Shown in pieces: positions 59,825-60,895 of a stretch of 64,000 nucleotides of DNA. Position 1 is the first letter of the stretch. Each line of letters begins with the position of its first letter. A program made the translations under genes and the position numbers. The stretch covers positions 62,001-126,000 of the forward strand of contig NZ_JAAIYO010000007.1 in the NCBI RefSeq assembly GCF_014930455.1. Direction: 5' to 3'. Under the pieces are notes generated by a model, which saw only the letters and a list, made by a program, of their open reading frames with translations, ran no database searches and was not told the origin of the DNA. The stretch is from Corallococcus soli. Lineage in GTDB: Bacteria; Myxococcota; Myxococcia; Myxococcales; Myxococcaceae.

Positions 59825-60352
59825 ATGCAGTTCGTCAAGAAGCAGCGGATCCAGGGCACGGTGGACGAGGTGGAGCGCGCGCTCCTCGACGAGCGCTACT
59901 TCCCGTTCCTGCTCCAGCACCACGGCGTGCTGCTGGAGTTGCAGCCCCTGGAGGTGAAGGCGGACGGCGACCGCGTGCACCGCAAGGTGCGCTACCGCCC
60001 CAAGCCCGTCATCGCCACCATCGGCACCAAGAAGGTGCCGCCCGAGTGGTTCGCCTTCATCGAGACGTCCACCTACGACAAGCGCAAGAAGGAGCTGTCG
60101 TTCACCAACACGCCCACGTCCCAGACCATCTCCAACATGATGGTCAACAACGGCGTGCTGCGCCTGCGCGACCTGGGCAACGGGGAGACGGAGCGCACCA
60201 TGGACGGGGAGATCAAGCTCAAGCTCCCCTTCCTGCTCAAGGCCGTGGCGTTCATCGGTGAGAAGGTCATCGAGTCCGAGGGCCTGAAGATCCTCGACAA
60301 CGAGGTGCCCGTCCTCAACCGCTTCATCGCGGAAGTCATCCGCGCCAAATAG
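59825..60352 (+). CDS. Hypothetical protein, START/SRPBCC-like
   Basis: 175 residues. One N-terminal helix (VDEVERALLDERYFPFLLQH) then an alternating strand pattern (RVHRKVRYRPKP, KKELSFTNTPTSQTISN) and a long C-terminal helix. This suggests a lipid-binding-type SRPBCC fold, but I am not certain. It follows the protease gene after 33 bp on the same strand. Function unknown. Confidence 0.65.
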   Translation: MQFVKKQRIQGTVDEVERALLDERYFPFLLQHHGVLLELQPLEVKADGDRVHRKVRYRPKPVIATIGTKKVPPEWFAFIETSTYDKRKKELSFTNTPTSQTISNMMVNNGVLRLRDLGNGETERTMDGEIKLKLPFLLKAVAFIGEKVIESEGLKILDNEVPVLNRFIAEVIRAK

Positions 60353-60369
60353 TCAAAGCGCGCTTCACG

Positions 60370-60424
60370 GGCGGGGCCTGGGAATGGGTTGACACCCATG
60401 CGGTTGAACCCATAAGGCCCCGCC
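60370..60424 (+). promoter_or_regulatory. Nested inverted repeat with promoter, abutting a start codon
   Basis: Outer arms GGCGGGGCCT (60370-60379) and AGGCCCCGCC (60415-60424) are a perfect 10-bp pair; inner arms ATGGGTT (60384-60390) and AACCCAT (60407-60413) a perfect 7-bp pair. The right outer arm ends one base before the ATG at 60425. TTGACA (60389-60394), 16 nt, CATAAG (60411-60416) lies inside, 8 nt before the ATG. No ribosome-binding site is seen. Confidence 0.6.
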
Positions 60425-60895
60425 ATGCACAACCGCTTCCTCGCCCTCTGCGCCGTCTTCCTCCTGGCCGCGTGCGCCCCGAAGCGCATTCCCGGCACGG
60501 AGTTGCAGGACACCGACGACACCCGCGCCATCCTCGCCGTCATGGAGCGCTACCGCGCCGCCCTGGAGGCGCGCGACGCGAAGGCCATCCAGTCCCTGGT
60601 GTCCCCGAAGTTCCGCGACGATGGCGGCACCGAGGGCCCGGAAGACGATCTCACCGCCGCCAACATGGGCGCCCACCTGGAGGCGCTCTTCCAGAAGCTC
60701 CAGAACCCCAAGGTGGAGATCAACGTCCGCCGCGTGGAGATCCGCGAGGACGAAGAGGTCGCCTCCGCCATCTACTACTGGAACGCGTCCTGGCGCATGC
60801 CCGGCCTCAACGCCCGGCCCCAGCAGGACTCGGAGCTGGAGCAGATGGTGTTCCAGAAGGTCGACGGCGACTGGAAGATCGTCTCCGGCATCTAG
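60425..60895 (+). CDS. Small lipoprotein, NTF2-like
   Basis: 156 residues. A signal with lipobox LAAC (Cys17) precedes an alpha+beta domain (LAVMERYRAALEARDAKAIQ, LVSPKFRDDGG) resembling NTF2-like/SnoaL folds. Function unknown. It lies 72 bp after the previous gene, with a strong dyad and promoter in the gap, and is probably translated from a leaderless message. Confidence 0.75.
   Translation: MHNRFLALCAVFLLAACAPKRIPGTELQDTDDTRAILAVMERYRAALEARDAKAIQSLVSPKFRDDGGTEGPEDDLTAANMGAHLEALFQKLQNPKVEINVRRVEIREDEEVASAIYYWNASWRMPGLNARPQQDSELEQMVFQKVDGDWKIVSGI

Follow-up and report, generated by a model that had tools for sequence, protein, structure and literature searches.

SigH and SigR are ECF sigma factors whose regulons are concerned with thiol and heat stress. 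In excerpts of the published descriptions, SigR recognises GGAAT-N18-GTT (PMC2375139), and the SigH-type promoters of Corynebacterium are given as GGAAT-N18-19-GTT, with tabulated examples of the form GGAATG-N17-GTT and extended boxes that read gGGAAta and (t/c)GTTgaa (PMC10012870). The same GGAAT -35 box, GTT -10 box and 17-19 nt spacing that these excerpts report for Corynebacterium (PMC10012870) and Streptomyces (PMC2375139) are found in the 55 bases described here, which lie in front of a lipoprotein gene in a 64,000-nucleotide stretch of DNA (the window), part of the 9.44-Mb genome of a Corallococcus-like myxobacterium, although this is a different phylum and the genes look envelope-related rather than concerned with thiol or heat stress. 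E. coli sigma-E differs, having a -35 box of GGAACTT (PMC3397946) and a GTC-type -10 (PMC10012870) in the parts of those papers that describe it. Two further kinds of element bear comparison. Leaderless-mRNA promoters resemble the locus in that 6 nt separate the putative -10 from the ATG, although AAGG, a candidate Shine-Dalgarno sequence, is also present at the lipoprotein gene; and start-sequestering leader hairpins resemble it in that some of the predicted folds have a stem that adjoins the AUG and includes AAGG, although the left arm of that stem is upstream of both promoters and only readthrough RNA could form it. We think it rather probable that the 55 bases constitute a compact double promoter, ECF-type and housekeeping-like, to which a lineage-specific outer inverted repeat has been added.

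The gene concerned encodes a DUF4440/SnoaL-like lipoprotein, which we take to have an NTF2-like fold and in which a lipobox (LAAC) was spotted by eye. A protein search found its relatives in Corallococcus (83-94% identity), two Myxococcaceae MAGs, Hyalangium (70%) and Myxococcus (62%), and 95 of the 96 family genomes contain a match to the gene. Upstream of it, on the same strand and after a gap of 72 nt, is a DUF2505-like gene (Table 1), the apparent end of which can be seen by eye in front of the orthologue in many genera, and which is a possible source of readthrough RNA into the lipoprotein gene. Orthologous upstream regions were used from 90 of the 95 genomes with a match, under 23 genus labels, of which we take g1 to be Corallococcus, g41 Myxococcus and g16 Hyalangium; G065, G080, G111, G112 and G113 were left out, and weak second matches in G083 and G069 were excluded. 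These sequences are related, and counts of sequences or genera are not counts of independent events, the genus count being the fairer of the two. The alignment of g1, g18 and g41 has 45 rows and 36 distinct sequences. One record, BNCN01000003.1, is titled Comamonas sp. KCTC 72670 and holds a Myxococcus-like orthologue; it was grouped here in g41, and the organism name looks wrong.

Table 1. Positions of the promoter elements, repeat arms and flanking genes in the window.
Feature	Position	Strand	Sequence, evidence or remark
DUF2505-like gene, upstream neighbour	59825..60352	+	PF10698 E 3.8e-5, 24.3 bits, under the cut-off of 26.9
Outer repeat, left arm	60370..60379	+	GGCGGGGCCT; sequence and repeat finder
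ECF-type -35 box, GGGAAT	60380..60385	+	Orthologue spacing counts; published SigH/SigR promoter form
Inner repeat, left arm, overlapping both -35 boxes	60384..60390	+	ATGGGTT; repeat finder
Housekeeping-like -35, TTGACA, within the ECF spacer	60389..60394	+	Fixed N18 spacing in orthologues
ECF-type -10 box, GTTG (GGTTGAA)	60403..60406	+	Conservation in g1, g18 and g41; spacing control
Inner repeat, right arm	60407..60413	+	AACCCAT; repeat finder
Putative housekeeping-like -10, TAAGGC	60413..60418	+	TAAGG in 36/36 distinct sequences
AAGG, possible Shine-Dalgarno for a start near 60412-60414	60414..60417	+	36/36 distinct sequences; putative role
Outer repeat, right arm; also leader adjoining the ATG	60415..60424	+	AGGCCCCGCC; sequence and repeat finder
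DUF4440/SnoaL-like lipoprotein gene	60425..60895	+	Pfam PF14534 E 3.6e-9, PF13474 5.7e-6

By these comparisons the most widely conserved signal in the 55 bases is GGAAT-N17/18-GTT, the core of which occupies 60381-60405 with an N17 spacer and can be read at greater length as GGGAATG-N16-GTTGAA. Across the 90 regions GGAAT and GTT are separated by N17 in 60, N18 in 6, N12 in 5 (from one genus) and N13 and N14 in 1 each, and there are no instances at any other spacing from 8 to 29, N19 included. N17 and N18 together account for 66 regions and 15 of the 23 genera, and in single-base shuffles (n=300) GGAAT-N17-GTT occurs in a mean of 0.09 and a maximum of 2 of the 90. Every one of the 36 distinct g1, g18 and g41 sequences has the TT of the -10 box, and 28 of them have the G preceding it. 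The boxes resemble those of promoters read by stress-type (ECF) sigma factors, with membership of the SigH/SigR class assigned by sequence form alone. Thirty of the regions are without the N17 form and 24 have neither N17 nor N18; eleven of the 27 Myxococcus sequences are among these 24, nine having ATT or CTT in place of GTT and two also being without GGAAT. Genera g8, g12 and g5 keep the GGAAT/GTT boxes without TTGAC or the outer repeat, and the ECF-type boxes are probably the oldest part of the block because they are the most widely shared.

A different motif, TGACA-N3-TG(G/T)CA, is present in the promoter region of eight orthologues (L027, L028, L031, L080, L081, L082, L084 and L094, of genera g14, g17, g19 and g20), 41-64 nt before the start of the match. 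Seven of the eight are without GGAAT-N17/18-GTT, the exception being L027 (g20), which has the N18 form, and a different regulator may have taken over at these loci. A further candidate promoter, at L034, was dropped, as it sits in coding-looking sequence.

Interleaved with the GGAAT/GTT pair, and 9-10 nt downstream of it, is a second pair, TTGAC/TAAGG. The pattern TTGAC[AT]-N18-TA[AG][AG]G (60389-60417 in the window) is found in 52 of the 90 regions and 5 genera, and among the other spacings from 10 to 25 there is one sequence at N17 and none elsewhere; in the aligned genera the last base of the -35 is A or T (TTGACA, TTGACT). The sequence-only reading had taken CATAAG (60411-60416) for the -10, which is not borne out, in that the invariant part is TAAGG, with the C of CATAAG present in 29 of the 36 distinct sequences and the A after it in 19. 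The vegA promoter of M. xanthus may have a TAAGGG-type -10. The -35 is TTGACA; a scan for the sigma-70 consensus gave no match, TAAGGC is a poor TATAAT, and there is no TATAAT-like -10 at 16-18 nt from the -35. We refer to the pair as housekeeping-like and do not class it as a member of the sigma-70 group. AAGG ends 7 nt before the ATG, and the invariance of TAAGG could also stem from its position in the leader. With its end just before the ATG, TTGAC-N18-TAAGG is a possible leaderless promoter. The earlier proposal of a promoter inside the repeat agrees with the promoter-type conservation seen here, but it had missed the element that is most widely conserved.

The promoter elements are interwoven with a nested inverted repeat, which had been described from the sequence as perfect 10-bp outer and 7-bp inner arms and is indeed present, both by inspection and with a repeat finder. 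The outer arms are complementary at 10 of 10 positions with 35 nt between them, and the inner arms at 7 of 7 with 16 nt between. Two details required correction: the outer arm ends at 60424, immediately before the ATG at 60425 and not one base short of it, and TTGACA and CATAAG, although both present, are not enclosed free of the arms but overlap them. In a window as GC-rich as this one, perfect 10-bp repeats are fairly common, with nine instances (arms of at least 10, loops of 3-60 nt) versus a mean of 12.55 (8-20) in 20 dinucleotide shuffles. When the 72-nt intergenic region was shuffled, such a repeat arose in 8 of 2000 shuffles and a nested 10+7 arrangement in none of 2000, this being a post hoc test. 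Separately, GCGGTTG (60400-60406) is complementary to CAACCGC (60430-60436) in the first codons, and the two are paired in the predicted fold of 60353-60500.

The outer repeat is limited to Corallococcus, Myxococcus and g18, where it is perfect in 31 of 45 sequences, retains a 6-bp core in 12 more and is broken in 2. All 16 Corallococcus sequences have perfect arms; among the 27 Myxococcus sequences 15 are perfect and 25 have the 6-bp core, and both g18 sequences have the core only. In the 45 sequences of other genera GGGGCC is present in 1 and GGCCCC in 11, and both together at the proper spacing in none. The left-arm columns are conserved and the ten columns upstream of them variable in the 36 distinct sequences of the three genera, the right arm hardly varies in g1, g18 and g41, and the outer repeat is probably under constraint. 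Within the same 36 sequences 96.9% of the outer-arm cells are paired, and at most 59.4% when the arms are slid by 1-3 columns; there are no compensatory changes. Leaving the two end pairs aside, the other eight pairs have 12 changed cells, of which 10 become G-U; at the end pairs all 9 changed cells are unpaired. The G-U changes lean slightly towards an RNA role for the outer arms, with few events counted. The inner repeat was rejected as a conserved structure: 78.2% of its cells are paired, its two innermost pairs are broken in 21 of the 36 sequences, and its right arm is not kept in Myxococcus. The expectation that the arms would be conserved in relatives thus holds for the outer arms, in three genera, and fails for the inner ones. 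Some Myxococcus sequences have a CCCGCC-like stretch, noticed by eye just upstream of the left arm (L041, L045, L048, L051, L055, L056, L058-L061, L063, L065, L067 and L068), which could pair locally with GGCGGG of that arm and rival the outer repeat.

In the double-promoter arrangement that we favour, GGGAAT and GTTG would be bound by an ECF sigma factor with SigH/SigR-type recognition, whose RNA would start near 60412-60414 and have a leader of 11-13 bases that carries AAGG; such an RNA could not form the outer hairpin, because it would be without the left arm. A housekeeping-like polymerase would bind TTGACA and TAAGGC, about one helical turn downstream, with its RNA starting at or next to the ATG, approximately 10 nt from the ECF start. 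As neither RNA would hold the left arm, the hairpin would concern readthrough RNA only, and the arms would otherwise act as DNA. The outer repeat may lower the translation of readthrough RNA from the DUF2505-like gene, or it may be a DNA operator. The switch between two modes of expression proposed in the sequence-only reading survives this comparison in changed form. The most elaborate version, which we regard as very unlikely in its entirety, is that the block sorts three RNAs (a readthrough RNA muted by the hairpin, an ECF-driven RNA with a short leader and AAGG, and a leaderless housekeeping RNA), with the choice of sigma factor setting the mode of translation initiation as part of an envelope ECF regulon.

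Several simpler explanations have to be weighed against the double promoter and a functional repeat. A single housekeeping promoter (TTGACA with TAAGGC or CATAAG) that gives a leaderless mRNA, with GGGAAT and GTTG being incidental, would account for the fixed spacing of TTGAC and TA[AG][AG]G in the 52 regions, and for L074 and L077, which have no GGAAT yet keep TTGACT and TAAGG. We consider it distinctly unlikely, since GGAAT-N17/18-GTT extends to 15 genera versus 5, including g8, g12 and g5 where TTGAC is absent, and the GGAAT/GTT motif recurs at other homologous genes (see below). For the repeat itself, chance occurrence in a GC-rich leader, with no function, is consistent with the lack of any excess of perfect 10-bp repeats in the window and with the poor conservation of the inner arms; the conservation of the left-arm columns beside variable ones argues against it, and we think chance rather improbable. 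Similar standing can be given to an operator, with a dimeric or looping protein bound to both arms, whose centres are 45 bp apart, so as to block polymerase between them. It would explain why the pair of arms is restricted to g1, g18 and g41 and why the left arm is preserved beside sequence that varies freely, but changes to G-U break the symmetry of the DNA while keeping the RNA pair, although the independent events are few, and a separation of 45 bp is unusual for one dimer.

Action of the outer repeat in readthrough RNA, where the leader would pair with the left arm and most translation would come from RNAs with a start inside the repeat, is doubtful but possible. It fits the sharp dependence of arm pairing on register and the fact that the right arm makes up almost all of the leader, and the outer hairpin is present in the predicted folds of 60253-60500 and 60353-60460; on the other side are the absence of compensatory changes, the unpaired changed cells at the end pairs, and the best fold of 60353-60500, which is another structure. 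The 60353-60460 RNA folds only moderately better than shuffled sequences (z -1.46), of which 13 of 200 did as well. In readthrough RNA from 60253 the predicted unpaired probability is 0.27 for AAGG and 0.67 for AUG, about as accessible as in RNA from 60412 (0.31 and 0.61), and the sole difference is in the bases between AAGG and AUG, at 0.02 and 0.51 respectively. The suggestion that a readthrough hairpin would hide the start is therefore upheld insofar as the hairpin forms in two of the three stretches folded, but not in its consequence, the AUG being no less accessible in the longer RNA. Two other RNA-level interpretations were set aside. A search of 60100-60700 for intrinsic terminators found none with loops of 3-8 nt, a limit that is blind to a 35-nt loop, and a terminator reading was rejected in that there is no T run, the right arm being followed by ATGCACAACC. 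A known family of cis-regulatory RNA was ruled out, as Rfam covariance models gave no matches in 60100-60700 at E values up to 1.

The ECF-type boxes are also found in front of other genes. GGGAAT-N17-GTTG occurs 11 times in the genome of the window (G000), 10 times in G091 and 13 times in G072, these representing three genera, and three homologous promoters with the boxes but with different spacer sequences are common to all three genomes. One is that of the NTF2-like/DUF4440 lipoprotein gene (L103, L147 and L144). A second precedes a gene for a multi-spanning, transporter-like protein of about 428 amino acids (L098, L139 and L146; 79% and 66% identity to L098 of Corallococcus), for which Pfam MFS_1 is matched only below the cut-off. 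The third is in front of a gene for a lipoprotein with VYPSG (L104, L149 and L152; 46% and 38% identity to L104 of Corallococcus). By eye, the gene upstream of this last lipoprotein encodes LLEDE.LVDQVTNLVELP in the three genera, and the neighbourhood is kept. Further sites precede genes for an FKBP_N/FKBP_C lipoprotein (L097), a Peptidase_S13 carboxypeptidase (L105), an MFS transporter (L102) and a Peptidase_S46 protein (L151). In one Myxococcus genome (G091) L141 and L151 have similar starts, each after GGGAAT-N17-GTTG, and L141 resembles Peptidase_S46 by eye.

The genome-wide enrichment of the motif is mild, N17 accounting for 11 of the 98 GGGAAT/GTTG matches over 18 spacings in G000. By a crude classification, 20 of the 34 N17 sites are promoter-like versus 12 of 40 at other spacings (Fisher one-sided p 0.012), and of the other 14 N17 sites 7 are coding and 7 have no gene start nearby; the classifier wrongly put the window's own site among the coding ones, and with that set right the count would be 21 of 34. 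The control for enrichment was the other spacings and not the reversed pattern (no matches in strict form; 42 versus 318 over all spacings), which was not used as a measure because it contains a TA step, which we take to be rare in such genomes. The longer form GGAAT-N15-CGGTTG has 4 matches versus 2 for its control in the same genome and, with up to two mismatches, 14 in the window versus 11.46 expected, and GGAAT-N15-YGGTTG has 87 versus 17 over 16 related, non-independent genomes, where some recurring matches may be coding. Of 46 PF08281 matches, 30 were examined for a sigma factor gene with the motif within 200 nt upstream of its open frame, and none had it; PF08281 also catches non-ECF proteins, and two motif matches are inside open frames (L113 and L126).

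Judged by its promoter and those that share the boxes, the lipoprotein gene is predicted to belong to an envelope-related ECF regulon. Sigma-E envelope stress regulons typically include genes for FKBP-type isomerase lipoproteins, D-Ala-D-Ala carboxypeptidases and lipoproteins, and all three kinds are among the predicted members here. No description of an ECF regulon with GGAAT promoters in myxobacteria was found in the literature searched, which covers few subscription journals. The sites at homologous genes of three genera suggest a predicted ECF promoter class, GGGAAT-N17-GTTG, for envelope-related myxobacterial genes. The predicted start sites are concrete and can be checked against the published M. 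xanthus Cappable-seq data, named in an excerpt of PMC8844925 as E-MTAB-11042. If the overlapping promoter pair is true, the site would test whether the choice of sigma factor sets leader length.
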